A stretch of DNA of 64,000 nucleotides from assembly GCF_004216895.1 (NCBI RefSeq), contig NZ_SGXE01000001.1, forward strand, positions 1,594,208-1,658,207, read 5' to 3'. Shown piece after piece: positions 6,449 through 15,593 of this stretch. Both the position numbers and the translations under genes were made by a program. This DNA comes from Aquimarina brevivitae (GTDB lineage Bacteria > Bacteroidota > Bacteroidia > Flavobacteriales > Flavobacteriaceae). The notes under the pieces were generated by a model. The model was not told the DNA's origin, ran no database searches, and saw only the letters and a list, made by a program, of their open reading frames with translations. The first letter of the stretch is position 1. The number at the start of each line of letters is the position of its first letter.

Positions 6449-8344
6449 ATGAAAAATCTAATCTTAACTTTCTTTGGGCTTACTGTTCTTTACAGTTGCA
6501 ATGAATCCCCCACATTTGATAAAAAACTGTTGGATCCTGAGGTTATCGATCATAATGTTCCCTTGTCAACTGAACCTTATGCAGATGAGGAAGTGCTAAA
6601 AAATCTAGCCCCAATACGTCAAAGATTCGATAATTTTGCAATTACTAAGGATAGTGAATTCATAAATGATAGGATGACTTCTTTTGGCAAACAAATGCCA
6701 AAGACGGTTTATGAACCCGTTAAAGATAAAGCATTCTTAATGGCAGGATGGCAATTAACTTCTACTTTAATTGTGGTTGGTGATGATGGGTTGATCGTTG
6801 TTGATCCCGGAGAAAGTGATGAGGCTTCAAAAAGAATCATTGAAGATTTTAGAAAAGTAACTGGTATTAATTTGCCGGTTAAAGCAATTGTTTATTCACA
6901 CAGGCATCCAGATCACTCATTTGGAGCTGCTGGTATGGGTGTTACTCAAAAACAGGTAACCAATGGAGAGGTAAAAATATTTGCGCATTACCAATTTATG
7001 GATTATTTAGCTAACGACGCAAGTGTTGTAGGGTCTATACTAACAGAACGGACAGCATACGGAGGAGCAACTTATTTAGGGCAAAATGAAAAAGGACTTG
7101 TCCACGCTGGTTTAGGGCCTACTTTTGCCGGAGGTAAAATATCTTTTTATAGACCTACTGACGAAGTTAAAGGAGAGCTAATAACAGAGGTAGCTGGTGT
7201 AAAAATGATTCTATTTGAGGCTTATGGTGATGCCGAAGATGAAATTGATGTGTATTTCCCTGACTTAAAGCATGTGCACGGTTCAGAAACGGTACAGGGA
7301 GAGTCTTTTCCGAATTTATATACCCTCAGAGGTACAAAATACAGAGATTTAGTCAAATGGTATAAAGGTGTTGATAATTTATTAGCTTACGCTAAGAAAA
7401 GTGACAGTTATAGTCACTCCCATATGAGATCCTGGGTAGGTAATGAATTTATTGTAGAACGCATTCAGAATTACAGAGATGCTATTCAATATACACACGA
7501 TCAGTCTATTTATCATATGAACCAAGGTGCCACAAGAGAAGAATTGGTGGCGTTGGTTTCATTACCAGAACACCTCAAAAAGGATCCTTGGTTACAAGAA
7601 TTTTATGGTAGTGTAGAACACGTGGTCAGGAACGTGTATAACGGATATCTTGGATGGTATTCTGGTGATGCTACTGAGCTTGCAACACCATCCTTTTATA
7701 GAAAAGCTAAATTGTACGTGTCTGCCATGGGAGGTCGCGATAATATATTAAAAATAGCTGAAGAAGCTATTGAGGCTAAAGACTACGGCTGGGCTATGGA
7801 AATTACTACACATTTGATTAGATCCAATCCTAAGGATACTGTTGCCAGAAATGTTAAAGCTAGGGCGATGGAGGCTTGGGGATTTGATCAATCCAATATT
7901 TATTATAGAAACTTTGCATTATCGGGTGCAAAAGAGTTGGACGGTACTCTTGATAAATCGGGAGCTTTTGATTTTGCAAATCCGGTTATTATTCAACAGT
8001 TTTCTATTGGAACAATTCTTGAAAATTTGAGAGTTAAAATAAATGCACCCAAAGCGACAGATGCAAATTTTAAAATTGGTTTTAACATATCGGATCGGAA
8101 TGAACAATATGGATTTCACGTTAGAAATGGAATTGCCGCCTTTTACGATTATATCCCTCAAAATTCAGATTTAGTGCTTAGTGTGCCAAGTAGTGTTGTA
8201 TATGACTTTGTTTTAGGTAAAGGAAAAGTAAAAGACGCAATCAAAAATGGAGTCGGTACTGCCGATGGAGATATAAATCAATTAGATACATTTGCAAACT
8301 ATTTTGATTTTAGTAAGTCGCCCATAAACCTATCTTCAAGATAA
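6449..8344 (+). CDS. Alkylsulfatase-like metallo-beta-lactamase-fold lipoprotein
   Basis: A 631-residue SdsA1/BDS1-type alkyl sulfatase homologue. The zinc motif is HRHPDH (His151, His153, Asp155, His156). A second ligand region reads SETVQGESFPNLYTLRG, the family's Glu-containing segment, and SHSHMRSW probably supplies the later His. The C-terminal 120 residues match the SCP2-like domain of these enzymes. The family hydrolyses primary or secondary alkyl sulfates to alcohol and sulfate. The N-terminus is a lipoprotein signal with Cys17 (LYSC), so the enzyme is membrane-anchored. The gene stands alone, and the substrate cannot be told from the sequence. Confidence 0.85.
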   Translation: MKNLILTFFGLTVLYSCNESPTFDKKLLDPEVIDHNVPLSTEPYADEEVLKNLAPIRQRFDNFAITKDSEFINDRMTSFGKQMPKTVYEPVKDKAFLMAGWQLTSTLIVVGDDGLIVVDPGESDEASKRIIEDFRKVTGINLPVKAIVYSHRHPDHSFGAAGMGVTQKQVTNGEVKIFAHYQFMDYLANDASVVGSILTERTAYGGATYLGQNEKGLVHAGLGPTFAGGKISFYRPTDEVKGELITEVAGVKMILFEAYGDAEDEIDVYFPDLKHVHGSETVQGESFPNLYTLRGTKYRDLVKWYKGVDNLLAYAKKSDSYSHSHMRSWVGNEFIVERIQNYRDAIQYTHDQSIYHMNQGATREELVALVSLPEHLKKDPWLQEFYGSVEHVVRNVYNGYLGWYSGDATELATPSFYRKAKLYVSAMGGRDNILKIAEEAIEAKDYGWAMEITTHLIRSNPKDTVARNVKARAMEAWGFDQSNIYYRNFALSGAKELDGTLDKSGAFDFANPVIIQQFSIGTILENLRVKINAPKATDANFKIGFNISDRNEQYGFHVRNGIAAFYDYIPQNSDLVLSVPSSVVYDFVLGKGKVKDAIKNGVGTADGDINQLDTFANYFDFSKSPINLSSR

Positions 8345-8430: not shown

Positions 8431-9087
8431 ATGAAAAAGATCATATTTACTTTAGTCATATTAATAAGTGCTAAAAGTTATACACAAAATGAATTTTTTC
8501 TTGATGTATATATTGAAAAAGAATTGTTTTCTTTAGATCGATTATCATTACTTGTTGAAACTAATTATAAGCATGCATATCAAAAAAGCAGATGGAGAAG
8601 AGGCGCTTTGAACGTAAAGTTAGAACATCAACTTTCTTCGAATTGGTTATTGTTTGGTAAGTTGGTAAACAACTATCGCTTTGACAATATTTTGGGTGAT
8701 TTTTATGAACTTAGACCATCTTTAGGTGTTGGATTAAAAGTTCCGTTATTTAAAAAAATAAGCTTTGCGCAAAAGTTAGCTGTAGAATGGCGTAATTTTT
8801 TCATTTCAAGACACGATCAATATCTAAGGTCAAGATATAAAGTTCAATTAAATTATAGATTTGACAAAAGAAACGAATGGAATATTAACTCTGGATTTGA
8901 GTGGTTCTTTTTAAGAGATCCTGTATTGAATGAGCGATATTCAACTTCTAGGAGATTTTCAACCTTTATATCAAAAGAGATCAAAACGGTTACCTTAAAA
9001 TTGGGATATCAACGAGAAGTTTTTCTTAGAAGCAGTAGTAACTTTAATAGAATTGGTAATACTGTTTCTTTTCAAATAGCATTTTAG
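8431..9087 (+). CDS. DUF2490 family outer-membrane protein
   Basis: A 218-residue protein with a short signal peptide ending SYTQ, followed by repeated strands rich in Arg, Tyr and Phe. Segments such as YELRPSLGVG, WRNFFISRHDQYLRSRYKVQLNYRF and a final NTVSFQIAF strand fit DUF2490, a predicted outer-membrane barrel of unknown function common in Bacteroidota. It lies 86 bases after the alkylsulfatase gene and ends 46 bases before the converging vWA/plug gene. No hairpin is obvious between the two. Confidence 0.75.
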   Translation: MKKIIFTLVILISAKSYTQNEFFLDVYIEKELFSLDRLSLLVETNYKHAYQKSRWRRGALNVKLEHQLSSNWLLFGKLVNNYRFDNILGDFYELRPSLGVGLKVPLFKKISFAQKLAVEWRNFFISRHDQYLRSRYKVQLNYRFDKRNEWNINSGFEWFFLRDPVLNERYSTSRRFSTFISKEIKTVTLKLGYQREVFLRSSSNFNRIGNTVSFQIAF

Positions 9088-9133: not shown

Positions 9134-12133
9134 CTAAGAATCGGTTTGATTTTCAAAAGTATCTATGGTGACCTTGGTATCTTGATTGTATAGCTTTATA
9201 AATTTCACTTCTTTTGTTTCCTCAGGTAAGCCATAGTTAGTATATATGGTGTATTTAAGATACACAGGGTTTTCCTTTACATATTGACCATTCAAAGATT
9301 GAATATTCACTATCCATTTTCCAGGAAAATTTTTATCCACGATAAATTGTTTAGAATAGACACCATTTCTAATTTCGGTAGCAATCATTTCAGGATCTGA
9401 TTCATAAAACCTGGACCAGGTGTAGTATTTGTTATCTGGATTTACAAATTGAACCTGAAACTCAGCCATAGGATCACTCCAGTCCAAATCGATTTTTATA
9501 GGTACTGATTTTACTGTATTGAACATTTTAGGTAAATCTTCTGAAGAAATATAGTTTCGGTACAAATTGGCAAATTTTTGAAATTGAGTTTCAGCTTGCT
9601 CTAATATTGGGGCAAAGTCAATTCCTTTTTCATCGTTAGCCAATATTCTTTTGTATATATAAAGTGACTCCGTAAGTCTTTTGTTTTCCATATAAGTTCT
9701 GGCTAAATCCAAGTAGGCCTGAGCAGAACTTTGGTATTGTATTTCAAAAATTCTTAGATACACCAGTAGTGCTTTTTCTTTTTGCTCATTCGCTTCTAAA
9801 TGAAAAGCAAGTGACCTAAGTGCTTGGGGGTTGTTCCAGGCTAAGTCTGCAATACTGGATAATACCTCATTACCAATAGCTGTATTATACCTATAAAAAA
9901 AGGTTGCTGCGTACTGATAGAAAGGAACTTCATTAACGTGATTGGCTCTTAGGGTATAAAACGTTGCCAATGCGTCGTCCAAAGATTTTGTGTTTTTTAA
10001 TTGGTTGACATAAGCTGGTGCTTTATAATAGGGGTCTACTGTAGGTAGCGTTTCTTTATAATCATTTCCTTTAACTAACAAGGTGTTTAATTCGCTAGGG
10101 TCTCTATATTTCGGACCTTTCTTGGTTTCTACGATGAATACACCTGCTCTACCGGCATTGCCATAACGGGCAGAACCTGCGGGGCCTGAAATTACTGAAA
10201 TACTTGCTATCCTGGCAGGTTGCAGAAACAACGGAGGGCTAAAATACTGTGCTCCATCTACAATCCATAAGGGTTGGCCTTGGTTGTTAAAGGAACTTAC
10301 TCCTCGAATGAGATAAGTTGCCTGGTCACCGAATCCAAAAACTTGAACCCCCGGCAAGCGATTCCTAATGATATCTGATAGATAGATGGCGGATTTAGGG
10401 AATTCATCATTGGTTAAGGTATACAATGCCGTTCCTGAAGCTCTTTTGCTTTCCTTTTTACCAAGAACGTCCATAGTTTTACTGTCCGTGGTATCTTTAA
10501 CTGCTGTTTTCAGGTTTATTTCTTCGAGTACGGTGGCTTCAGAAGTAAAAGATAGATTAATAGGTTGACTCCTATCAACTACTGTTTTGGTTTCGGGGAT
10601 CATACTCAAAAACTCAAATCGAAGCACTTGACCTTCCTCAGCGGGTATTGTATAATTGCCATCTACATTGGTTTGTGCTTGAATTAAAGTTTCTTGTACA
10701 GTTATGATTGCTCCTTGTACAGGCTGTCCATTCTGAGTCACGGTTCCTGTGATCATATCTGCTACAGTAGTATCAAAATCTCTAAAATCATCCTGATCTT
10801 TTCGGATTTGTTTTAGCGCGGTGTCGACATCACTTTGGTATAGGTCAATAAGATATCCTCCGGATAGCTCACAGGTATTTTGCATCGTAGCTCTATCTGC
10901 CTCTTTACTACTATTGATAAAAAAGATGGGAACATTAAAGATATTGCTATAGTCTCCAAAGGTAGCCTGACCATCACTACAGATTAGATAAATATCTGGG
11001 GTATGCCCTTCGGTCAATAAATTGGAAAAATTGGTGCCCCCATTATACCTAAAGGATCGGATGGCTGCTATCAAATTCGAAGTATTGCCATTTTTGATGG
11101 TAAATAGTTGAGCTACTTTTTTATCTGCGGCAAAAGGAATTAAGGTAACGTCAACATTCTTAAGTCCTGCGAGATATTGGGTTAAGAAGTTGAGCTCTTT
11201 ATCCAGATCTCTATCTTTGGTAGATAAGGAAGTATCCCAAAATAGTGTAATGTCTTTGGGCTCTTCTCTTTCTTTAAAGTCACCATCTGCGGGTACGGAA
11301 GCCTCTACCGTAAATGCCATACCGGTATTCGTAAATTTTTTCCAGCTATCCTGGCTTACATCTCTCAGATACGCTTTTCCTCTATTAGTACCCTGAACAG
11401 AAAAGCCAATATAGTCACCATAGACTTCCACCAACTCAATACTTATAATGAAATCATCTTGTACCACAATGTTGTAGGGGCTAAGGTCAATGGTTTCTTG
11501 AGCGTGATGCTTTGCTTTAATGGTGTGATAAATATTTTCCGTAACTAGTTTGTCTCCCGGTTTATTGTGTTTTTCTTCATATACATTGACTCTTACCAGT
11601 AAACTATCCGACTCATTTTCGTTAACCACAAAGTTAAGTTCACGCAGTTTCACATCATCGTGGCGTACTTTGATTAGGGTCGCAATTTCGCCTCCCAATC
11701 CTTTTTTATCTTTCCAGTATCCAATGAAATTATAAAATCCTCTCGGTTTATTGAGCATTAGTTTTCTGCGTTTAGCAGCCACGAGTGTGGCCTCCTCCAA
11801 TTGGGTAATAGTAGGACGCATATAGATTTTATTGGTTCTGGCTAAACGAGCATATAGGTCTTGAAGCTTAATTTTCAAGGTTTCATAGCCTAGCATGGAA
11901 ATCTGTAATGTAGCATCTTGACCCACGGCATTTTCATCAAATTCCAAAACTACCTTACCATTTTGATCACTAACCGTACCAATGGCCTGATCCACAAATC
12001 CAACATTGACGTAGGGGATAGGCTGATCGGTATCGGTATCTAAAACAACAGCGTCGATCGTTACTACGTATTGCGCCTGTATTGAGATTGTGCTAAATAG
12101 AATAAAGAGTACTAGGTAAAAATTAGTTTTCAT
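9134..12133 (-). CDS. Multidomain vWA and TonB-plug envelope protein lacking a beta barrel
   Basis: This 999-residue exported protein (signal peptide to about residue 20) has an unusual order of parts. A carboxypeptidase-regulatory beta-sandwich (22-105) is followed by an unclassified region (110-290). A von Willebrand A domain comes next, with an intact metal site (DTSLS at 300-304, Thr367, Asp387). A second beta-sandwich (458-535) leads to a TonB-receptor plug domain (about 575-672, with LPGVQV, LIRG and PLWIVDG). TPR-like helices (785-850) and a C-terminal sandwich (about 878-965) end it. The 22-strand barrel of TonB receptors is missing, so it cannot be a transporter itself. A role in envelope adhesion or assembly is inference. 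Confidence 0.8.
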   Translation of the reverse strand: MKTNFYLVLFILFSTISIQAQYVVTIDAVVLDTDTDQPIPYVNVGFVDQAIGTVSDQNGKVVLEFDENAVGQDATLQISMLGYETLKIKLQDLYARLARTNKIYMRPTITQLEEATLVAAKRRKLMLNKPRGFYNFIGYWKDKKGLGGEIATLIKVRHDDVKLRELNFVVNENESDSLLVRVNVYEEKHNKPGDKLVTENIYHTIKAKHHAQETIDLSPYNIVVQDDFIISIELVEVYGDYIGFSVQGTNRGKAYLRDVSQDSWKKFTNTGMAFTVEASVPADGDFKEREEPKDITLFWDTSLSTKDRDLDKELNFLTQYLAGLKNVDVTLIPFAADKKVAQLFTIKNGNTSNLIAAIRSFRYNGGTNFSNLLTEGHTPDIYLICSDGQATFGDYSNIFNVPIFFINSSKEADRATMQNTCELSGGYLIDLYQSDVDTALKQIRKDQDDFRDFDTTVADMITGTVTQNGQPVQGAIITVQETLIQAQTNVDGNYTIPAEEGQVLRFEFLSMIPETKTVVDRSQPINLSFTSEATVLEEINLKTAVKDTTDSKTMDVLGKKESKRASGTALYTLTNDEFPKSAIYLSDIIRNRLPGVQVFGFGDQATYLIRGVSSFNNQGQPLWIVDGAQYFSPPLFLQPARIASISVISGPAGSARYGNAGRAGVFIVETKKGPKYRDPSELNTLLVKGNDYKETLPTVDPYYKAPAYVNQLKNTKSLDDALATFYTLRANHVNEVPFYQYAATFFYRYNTAIGNEVLSSIADLAWNNPQALRSLAFHLEANEQKEKALLVYLRIFEIQYQSSAQAYLDLARTYMENKRLTESLYIYKRILANDEKGIDFAPILEQAETQFQKFANLYRNYISSEDLPKMFNTVKSVPIKIDLDWSDPMAEFQVQFVNPDNKYYTWSRFYESDPEMIATEIRNGVYSKQFIVDKNFPGKWIVNIQSLNGQYVKENPVYLKYTIYTNYGLPEETKEVKFIKLYNQDTKVTIDTFENQTDS

Positions 12134-12178: not shown

Positions 12179-12715
12179 CTAAAAAGTTATGGAACCAAAC
12201 ATATATTGAACTTCCTTTAGATGTTTATTATAAAATTTTGGGATAGCTTCGTATTCTAAAAAGTAAACTATCCCATTTACTTTATGATATTGTGTGAGTA
12301 TATTGTATACATCAGTTCCAATTTTTGCTGTTCGTTGTACGATATATGCTTTTCCGTATTTGCTATCGGTAGTATGGATTACTATTTTATTTCTTTTTAA
12401 CTCTTCTTCATTATATTTTGTACCAATGCTATGGGATATTATATCCTCAATAGATACGGTATTGGGTGGAGCATCAACTCTAAATATCTGAAAATGCACT
12501 TTACTTCTACGTCCTCTTTTATTTTTAGGAGCATAATAAGTGAAAAGATTCATATGTTCGTACGTAAACCAACTATCCAAAAGCTTGAATGTGTATCCTT
12601 CCTTTTCAATTTCCGAATATGCAATATCCTCTTTAGAAGATTGGGCAAATAAATTGTGCTGTACGATAAAACTCAAAAGTATAATCGCGAAAAAGGAGTT
12701 TAAAGTTTTTTTCAT
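12179..12715 (-). CDS. Secreted protein of unknown function
   Basis: A 178-residue protein with a clear signal peptide (hydrophobic residues 8-22, ending LFAQ). The mature part alternates strands and helices, with a central GYTFKLLDSW and a closing YMFGSITF. That pattern loosely recalls PsbP/DUF1795-like folds, but I do not recognise the family. It is 45 bases upstream of the vWA/plug gene on the same strand, so the two may be cotranscribed and act together in the envelope. Confidence 0.7.
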   Translation of the reverse strand: MKKTLNSFFAIILLSFIVQHNLFAQSSKEDIAYSEIEKEGYTFKLLDSWFTYEHMNLFTYYAPKNKRGRRSKVHFQIFRVDAPPNTVSIEDIISHSIGTKYNEEELKRNKIVIHTTDSKYGKAYIVQRTAKIGTDVYNILTQYHKVNGIVYFLEYEAIPKFYNKHLKEVQYMFGSITF

Positions 12716-13292: not shown

Positions 13293-15593
13293 ATGAAAGA
13301 AATGTTAGACATCAACAATCCAGAAAGTTTAGGTCAATGTCCGTTTAGAGGTACCCGAGTAGGAGGTGCTCTGGGTAAACAACCTCAAATTGACGACTGG
13401 TGGCCCAACCGCTTAAAGGTGGAGCTACTCCATCAAGACCCACCACAGGCCAATCCGTTATCAGATTACGATTATAAAGAAGCCTTCCTAAAACTTGACT
13501 ATGAAGCGCTTAAAAAGGATATCAAAGCGCTATTGACCGACTCCAAAGACTGGTGGCCGGCGGATTATGGCAATTATGGTCCACAAATGGTTCGAATGGC
13601 CTGGCACTCGGCCGGATCGTATCGAATTGCTGATGGTCGAGGAGGAGCTGGTACGGCCTTGCAGCGCTTTGCTCCTATAAATTCCTGGTGGGATAATGGG
13701 AATATTGATAAATCCAGACGCTTAATATGGCCGATCAAGCAGAAATACGGAGCGGCAATATCCTGGGGGGATTTGATTATCCTTACCGGTAACTGTGCGC
13801 TAGAGCTGATGGGCTTCAAAACCTATGGTTTTGCAGCAGGTCGACGAGATGCCTGGGAGCCGGATCGCGGTACCTATTGGGGTACCGAATTCTGGAACGG
13901 AAAAACCATTTCTGAAGTACCTAAACAAAGTTATGATGGCAATCCAGGAGAAATGGTTACCCGAACCGTACGCTGGAAAGGCAAGCCAGGTGATGCATAC
14001 TACGATCTCGAAAATCCTTTAGCAGCAACCAATCAGGCGCTGATCTACGTAGATCCCGAAGGGCCAAATGGTAATGGGGTGCCACTGGATTCTGCCAAAG
14101 ATATCCGAGAAACCTTTGCTCGCATGGCGATGAATGATGAAGAAACGGTAGCACTGATTGCTGGGGGACACGCCTTTGGTAAAAGTCACGGGATGACACC
14201 ACCAGATAAAATTGGTCCCGCACCAGAAGGCGCTCCAATCCAGGCGATGGGACTAGGCTGGCAAAATCCTAATGGTACCGGTTTTGCGCAATACACTATG
14301 ACCAACGGTATTGAGGGTTCCTGGACACCGAATCCTACACAGTGGGACAACAGCTACTTAGAAAACCTGTTTAAATACGACTGGGAAAAAACGAAAAGCC
14401 CGGCAGGTGCGGTGCAGTACAAACCTAAAGATTCCAATGCACCCAAAACACCAGACGCCCATGAGGAAGGTAAAATGAATGAACTGATGATGATGACCTC
14501 TGATTTGGCGCTCAAAGAAGATCCGGCCTACAATAAGATTTGTAAAAAATTTCTAGAGGATTTCGACTACTTCAGTGAAGCCTTTGCAAAAGCCTGGTAT
14601 AAATTAACGCATAGAGATATGGGGCCTAAGGATCGCTATTTTGGTCCAGAAGTGCCTAAAGAAGATTTGATATGGCAAGATCCGTTACCGAAACGTGATT
14701 ATGAGCTGATCGATGCTAAAGATATTACCTACTTAAAAGACGAAATTTTAAGTACGGGTCATGGTATTTCAGCTTTAGTATCTGCTGCATGGTCCAGTGC
14801 ATCTAATTATCGAGATTCGGATAAACGAGGAGGAGCTAATGGAGCCCGCGTTCGATTAAACCCCATAAAAAACTGGGAGGTCAACCGACCAGAGGAGTTG
14901 TCAGAGGTACTGGCGAGTTTAGAAACTATAGCTGCGGATTTTAATAAGGCGCAATCAGGGAACAAAAAAGTTTCAGTAGCCGATCTAATTGTACTCGGAG
15001 GCTGTGCCGCGGTAGAAAAAGCGGCCAAGGCTGCTGGAGTGGCTGTAGAAGTACCCTTTACTCCCGGTAGAGTTGATACCACACAAGAACTGACAGACGA
15101 AGAAAGTTTCAACTGGCTAAAACCCGTATCCGATGGTTTTAGAAACTATCAGAATGATAAAGTAGGTTTTCACATACGTCCGGAGCATCTGTTTTTGGAT
15201 CGGGCACACTTATTAACGCTAACGGCACCTGAGTGGACAGCATTGGTAGGCGGATTACGAGTATTGGATCAAAACTATGATCATAGTGATCTCGGGGTGT
15301 TTACCGACAAGAAAGAAACGCTGAGTAATGACTTTTTTAAGGTGCTGACCAGTATGGAGTACGAATGGGTACCTGATGAAGCGGAAATGATATTTACGCT
15401 TAAGGACAGAAGTTCTGGTACGCCCAGGTATAAAGCTTCGCGCTGTGATCTGATTTTTGGATCCAATGCGCAACTGCGTAATATCGCTGAGGTTTATGCC
15501 GCTAATGATGGCCACGAGCGTTTTGTACATGATTTTGTCAAAGTATGGGACAAGGTAATGATGCTGGATCGTTATGATGTAAAAAATTCCTAG
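13293..15593 (+). CDS. katG: Catalase-peroxidase KatG
   Basis: A bifunctional haem catalase-peroxidase that removes hydrogen peroxide, 766 residues in two fused peroxidase domains. The active N-terminal domain has distal Arg101, Trp104 and His105 (RMAWHSAG) and proximal His293 ([10 protein letters not shown]). The Trp104-Tyr252-Met278 set forms the covalent adduct needed for catalase activity. The C-terminal half repeats the fold without haem ligands. No signal peptide is present, so it is cytoplasmic. It stands alone with a terminator 42 bases downstream. ATG 13293 gives the usual start [12 protein letters not shown]. Confidence 0.98.

Follow-up and report, generated by a model that had tools for sequence, protein, structure and literature searches.

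An exported von Willebrand A protein of Aquimarina brevivitae with the N-terminal cassette of a SusC receptor and no barrel match

The window analysed here is a stretch of 64,000 nucleotides from the genome of Aquimarina brevivitae (contig NZ_SGXE01000001.1). Its minus strand encodes a protein whose basic description is secure at the level of sequence and predicted structure: it is exported and soluble, has a von Willebrand A (vWA) fold, and carries the N-terminal cassette of a SusC receptor without a barrel match. The features of the gene, and the gene upstream of it, are listed below (window coordinates; CPD, carboxypeptidase-like domain).

9134..12133, minus strand: whole gene, one ORF of 999 aa plus stop, ATG start
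12074..12133, minus strand: Sec-type signal peptide (residues 1-20), no lipobox Cys; boundary placed by eye
11810..12070, minus strand: first CPD-like domain (~residues 22-108); Pfam and model
11291..11779, minus strand: jelly-roll beta-sandwich (~residues 119-281); model and structure comparison
10784..11266, minus strand: vWA domain (~residues 290-450); model, structure comparison and hhalign
11222..11236, minus strand: MIDAS motif D300-x-S302-x-S304 (T367 and D387 further on); sequence
10538..10753, minus strand: second CPD-like domain (~residues 461-532), of the SusC N-terminal-extension type; Pfam, NCBIfam and Foldseek
10505..10528, minus strand: Ton-box-like stretch (residues 536-543) in a low-confidence linker; model and alignment, candidate only
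10118..10444, minus strand: SusC-type plug domain (~residues 564-672); Pfam, NCBIfam and fold of the isolated region
9560..10066, minus strand: TPR-like helical domain (~residues 690-858); Pfam (weak), model and hhalign
9137..9538, minus strand: DUF2135-like C-terminal domain (~residues 866-999); hhalign, without a direct Pfam match
12179..12715, minus strand: upstream gene for an exported protein of 178 aa, 45 bp away and on the same strand

Pfam identifies CarbopepD_reg_2 in two stretches (E 9.4e-21), as expected from the two carboxypeptidase-like domains proposed in a sequence-only reading of this DNA, along with Plug (residues 564-665, E 2.1e-9) and a weak TPR match that, together with the model, agrees with the TPR-like helices of that reading. 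At E<=1, Pfam lists for this protein neither a vWA family (vWF_A and YfbK_C are not listed) nor a barrel family, nor the C-terminal sorting-domain family of the T9SS. The protein is also absent among the matches of its genome to the barrel families PF00593 and PF14905, and where the barrel would be, the model has the TPR and a sandwich. The SusC/RagA model TIGR04056 (NCBIfam) covers residues 461-680 with 125.8 bits, against a whole-receptor cut-off of 368 bits, and a sequence search of the PDB returned three SusC homologues. Seven plug frames elsewhere in the genome are without a match to PF00593 or PF14905, the two barrel families against which they were compared. Export without an outer-membrane barrel, as first proposed, thus agrees with the Sec-type N-terminus and the barrel family not being listed at E<=1. 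We infer a periplasmic location from the signal peptide, taken with the lack of a lipobox, of a listed sorting domain and of a barrel. A lipobox-like string occurs in one of 103 family proteins.

An AlphaFold2 model was built from 30 close relatives (mean pLDDT 81.5, pTM 0.67). The vWA fold ascribed earlier to residues 290-450 is recovered in it, with Z 15.6 to 4jdu (range 292-446, rmsd 2.5, 150 aligned). The plug region (546-684), modelled alone from 56 sequences (pLDDT 76.8), bears out the plug fold proposed for residues 575-672: its best Foldseek match is the SusC plug 8aa4 (E 4.6e-6), it aligns to the SusC plug 6z9a_B with Z 12.7 (rmsd 3.0, 115 aligned, 26% identity), and all of the best 50 matches in each of two structure lists are TonB-dependent receptors. 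The linker at 534-569 is modelled with pLDDT < 50. Two further parts go beyond the first description of the protein, namely the DUF2135-like domain (~866-999) and the jelly-roll (~119-281), which resembles 4ci7_B (Z 14.7, rmsd 3.4, 146 aligned) and 9euj_G (Z 14.8, rmsd 2.7, 147 aligned). Likeness of the modelled fold does not show a lectin function.

The window gene and the upstream gene may form one operon. No family was found for the 178-aa protein, which is matched in one of 149 genomes, its own, and in none of the 148 others. A scan for promoters and terminators gave 13 and 1 sites, compared with 16.4 and 2.6 in shuffles. Convergent with the window gene is a gene for a DUF2490 protein (8431-9087); further genes nearby encode an alkyl-sulfatase-like protein with a metallo-beta-lactamase fold (6449-8344) and a catalase-peroxidase-like protein of 766 aa (13293-15593) in which Pfam identifies peroxidase twice. 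Only W4444 and W13293 among the window neighbours have relatives in the loci of the family, and thus the surroundings of the window gene are not conserved. Beside relatives, a gene for an exported M24 peptidase was identified in 18 loci (e.g., L057:3926-5269). In 11 of these (10 distinct, as L043 and L106 are the same), a co-oriented family gene lies at a distance of -20 to +35 bp; the gap is 113-199 bp in four, and in three the family gene is farther away or missing. Because the gene order around the M24 loci is itself conserved, the pairing may in part reflect descent of the whole locus from a common ancestor.

The window protein is matched at E<=1e-20 in 59 of the 149 genomes of its family, its own included. 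The matches reach the TPR/C-terminal part in 42 genomes and are confined to the CPD/jelly-roll module in eight and to the vWA in two. In the remaining seven, only the CPD-plug part is matched, in long frames that are probably ordinary SusC receptors. A first scan of genome contigs with the single window protein gave no match. Two paralogues were identified in the same genome, one of 815 aa without a vWA and one of 744 aa with a vWA but without the CPD/jelly-roll head. Relatives occur as CPD-plug-TPR-tail proteins (~580-680 aa), vWA-CPD-plug-TPR-tail proteins (~740 aa), head-vWA-CPD-plug-TPR-tail proteins (~1000 aa, the window type) and VIT-vWA-CPD-plug-TPR-DUF2135 proteins (~1100-1150 aa); the 141 classified proteins include duplicates, and some of the classes were assigned heuristically. 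The loci come from two genome collections that overlap (e.g., L058/L082, L062/L090, L043/L106, L060/L107 and L063/L092). Relatives of the same architecture are present in other genomes, and thus the architecture is more than chance. The CPD/jelly-roll head is also encoded as a free-standing protein (~280-410 aa) that adjoins other forms of the family in several loci, suggesting a joint function of head and core. In one protein (L052:6091-8079) the head is fused behind an alpha/beta-hydrolase domain. No description of the window architecture was found in the open-licence literature, a scope that takes in little of the subscription journals, and no open-licence paper was found for DUF2135.

Across 395 genomes of the phylum, 33 encode DUF2135 (PF09906), and a smaller draw of 148 has it in 15; it is part of VIT-vWA-TPR-DUF2135 proteins of ~1000-1200 aa. 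When 30 of these proteins (hereafter the chassis) were compared with the window group by hhalign, the probabilities were 100.0% for the vWA (E 2.4e-48), 99.9% for the TPR (1.8e-34) and 99.3% for the C-terminal domain (4.9e-20), against 0.1-0.4% for three mismatched control pairs. These profile alignments make the vWA, TPR and C-terminal domain homologues of the corresponding domains in the phylum-wide proteins (PF08487, PF09906). Unlike them, the window protein has no VIT and carries the CPD/jelly-roll head instead. The head matches VIT with 0.2% by hhalign; VIT was not found in the window protein or its genome, and neither was a direct Pfam match to DUF2135.

Some VIT-bearing proteins carry the SusC N-terminal cassette (CPD, Ton-box-like motif and plug), or a CPD, between vWA and TPR, the place that the cassette occupies in the window protein. 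In the vWA-TPR linker of the 30 chassis proteins, neither CPD nor plug was detected in 20, CPD only in three, plug only in three and both in four (phmmer/HMM, > 12 bits). With Pfam, two of the 20 (L126 and L127) do have a CPD, and L124 and L129 show sub-threshold traces of a plug; four other linkers tested show none. By eye, linkers of the plug-less L124, L125, L129, L130 and L135 resemble pieces of receptor N-termini, for which Pfam matches are sub-threshold or absent. The sequence-only reading had found the combination of domains hard to explain; the combination stands, and the difficulty is eased by ancestry, the chassis being a VIT-vWA-TPR-DUF2135 protein with SusC N-terminal parts inserted.

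In the SusC protein BT1763, the Ton box is DEVVVTG and the N-terminal extension is a CPD domain, according to the available text of PMC7782687. At the equivalent position between CPD and plug, the 30 proteins of the close group all have L536, V or I at 539 and L, I or V at 541, with E538 in 26 and Q in the other four. The motif of the window protein, LEEINLKT, is a weak version that departs from the DEVVV consensus. Among the chassis proteins, the motif pattern is present in the linker of five of the 20 without a detected CPD or plug (the other 15 lack it), in one of the three with CPD only and in all seven with a plug; elsewhere in these proteins it occurs in 0 of 30. No shuffle of 2000 reached five (mean 0.026), a comparison that ignores kinship, the five motif-bearers coming from two genera (g165 and g153). 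The first CPD of the window protein is also trailed by a like stretch (L112-E-E), with no plug behind it, so the Ton-box-like motif could be just the tail of a CPD. We treat the Ton-box reading of these alignments as a lead, not a result.

All five residues of the vWA metal site named in the sequence-only reading (Asp300, Ser302, Ser304, Thr367 and Asp387) are present in the window protein. In the close group (30 proteins, window included) D300 is found in 30, S302 in 28 and S304 as S in 15, position 367 is T or S in 24, and D387 is found in 21; the five occur together in 13. Of 38 proteins of the VIT-bearing classes, 37 have a DxSxS motif where the vWA starts. On this residue evidence, the metal site is ancestral, partly eroded in the window's own group and intact in the window protein. 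Metal-dependent binding may thus be possible for the window protein; it may not hold for the whole group, as the complete site is present in only 13 of the 30.

Mean pairwise identity in the close group is 0.457 for the DUF2135-like domain, 0.454 for the jelly-roll, 0.396 for the first CPD, 0.357 for the TPR, 0.346 for the vWA, 0.328 for the plug, 0.325 for the second CPD and 0.309 for the linker. The conserved ends are therefore the head and the tail, and the SusC-derived middle (second CPD, linker and plug) is the most variable. As an alignment-based measure, this variable middle speaks against a fixed role as a mimic of a receptor gate.

Tandem repeats of the cassette are encoded by a neighbouring gene in Dokdonia loci, where chains of 1188 to 1542 aa repeat the CPD three to four times, with a plug match after every CPD (the frames of 1188, 1230 and 1275 aa are cut by locus ends). 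The chains include L095:11085-15713, L098:7329-11267, L091:11062-15006, L093 and L094, and their units precede a TPR and a DUF2135-like tail. A plug HMM gives four matches in the protein of 1542 aa (76, 8, 120 and 156 bits), in which Pfam identifies five CPD and two Plug stretches, and four matches, all of at least 16 bits, in each of L093 and L094, both cut by locus ends. This HMM was built from alignment A3, which holds 56 of 64 listed stretches (eight of odd length, partial or poor were left out) and includes some plugs of the scanned Dokdonia proteins. A chain with several plugs is more easily reconciled with multivalent binding than with a plug for one gate. A CPD is also N-terminal in YfbK-type vWA proteins encoded in the same loci as relatives (L132:282-2372, L075:13280-15349 and L072:12697-14838), with a Plug over the cut-off in L132, below it in L075 and absent in L072. 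As in the window protein, a vWA is combined with a CPD and with plug sequence, here partial, in Bacteroidota members of this periplasmic YfbK type; they differ in belonging to another vWA family (vWF_A, YfbK_C) and in lacking the TPR and DUF2135.

TonB is known to drive outer-membrane receptors. Our main reading, to which we give a probability of roughly 0.35, is that the window protein is an exported, soluble periplasmic adaptor that docks to the TonB machinery through its SusC cassette. The protein would stay in the periplasm, where its vWA, jelly-roll and TPR/DUF2135 parts would bind envelope partners. Through the barrel-less cassette the protein would be bound, and perhaps pulled, by TonB or by a factor with affinity for TonB receptors, which would make it a soluble TonB client. 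As in SusC/RagA receptors, the CPD, Ton-box position and plug follow in the same order; unlike in those receptors, a vWA and jelly-roll precede the cassette, a TPR and DUF2135-like domain follow it, and there is no barrel. This retained order, Ton-box place included, argues for the adaptor, as do a proposal that vWA proteins act as force transducers and work implicating the CPD domain in interaction with TonB, both found in the available text of one review (PMC12204202). The force transducers described there, beside TolQR-like motors, resemble the window protein in being vWA proteins proposed for force transfer in the envelope; they differ in having a transmembrane helix and motor neighbours, and CPD-plug is not mentioned in that part of the review. 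According to a title in the references of PMC12419801, an isolated plug retains its structure without the barrel. Against the adaptor stand the weak motif of the window protein, its possible origin as a CPD tail, the 15 of 20 chassis proteins that lack the motif, and the low conservation of second CPD, linker and plug. A broader version, which we consider doubtful, is that the TonB handle of SusC, made up of CPD, Ton box and plug, is a mobile cassette in soluble vWA proteins, creating barrel-free clients through which ExbBD-TonB would pull periplasmic vWA/TPR complexes, with the tandem CPD-plug chains as multivalent versions.

The adaptor has at most a very slight edge over an equally probable alternative, in which the CPD-plug cassette serves as a general-purpose module for binding or spacing and the protein is an envelope scaffold or ligand binder with no involvement of TonB. 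Such a module is consistent with the three to four tandem units of the Dokdonia chains, with the faster evolution of plug and second CPD relative to the jelly-roll and DUF2135-like parts, and with the presence of the cassette in YfbK-type proteins. It accounts less well for a piece that is colinear with the SusC N-terminus, Ton-box position included, and for the Ton-box-like motif kept in five of 20 chassis proteins without a detected CPD or plug. It is improbable that the protein is instead a protease-linked envelope factor, like the inter-alpha-trypsin heavy chains, with the exported M24 peptidase as partner. Heavy chain 1 (6fpz) is the best Foldseek match of the whole model (E 3.6e-8), M24 genes adjoin many relatives, and the 744-aa paralogue in the same genome abuts one (0 bp). 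However, the window gene is not beside an M24 gene, and the pairing may be largely inherited gene order. The heavy-chain alignment has a TM-score of only 0.14 (rmsd 23.8 over 549 columns), and other vWA proteins outscore it in a second structure comparison, where a family missing from the aligner's list is not thereby excluded. The window protein also lacks VIT, and heavy chain 1 is not known to have the plug, TPR and DUF2135-like parts.

In the sequence-only reading, the free plug could occupy another receptor or imitate its gate. A genuine plug fold, nearest to those of SusC, is in favour of this. Against it, conservation of the plug is low (0.33, against 0.45-0.46 for the jelly-roll and DUF2135-like domain), Dokdonia relatives have several plugs per chain, and the analysis, which covered some of the neighbours of the window gene, showed no linked SusC gene. 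This role has gained no support so far, and we regard it, or any regulation of another receptor by the plug, as quite improbable. Least probable of all is that the cassette is a functionless relic undergoing loss. Plug traces of all grades in chassis proteins would fit such decay, whereas in several lineages the forms with a plug have open frames, recur and have been amplified.

Other identities were considered and rejected. For a link to the BAM complex, vWA, TPR and carboxypeptidase terms are absent from the available text of PMC12611786, and two relatives match NCBIfam BamP far below the cut-off, over their CPD region. For a phage or defence identity, the vWA region has a single weak PHROG match, and PADLOC gives none.

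Soluble proteins with a whole receptor front end would allow a test of TonB action on other envelope proteins, and the family would give a function to the DUF2135 lineage of Pfam in Bacteroidota. The cassette also bears on annotation. That of the VIT-bearing L039 matches the SusC model TIGR04056 with 282 bits over residues 572-795, and two barrel-less proteins (L039:5381-8698 and L123:2219-5881) reach 57.3 and 58.2 bits with the SusC signature TIGR04057, passing its curated cut-off of 46.2 bits, which is a trap for automated annotation.
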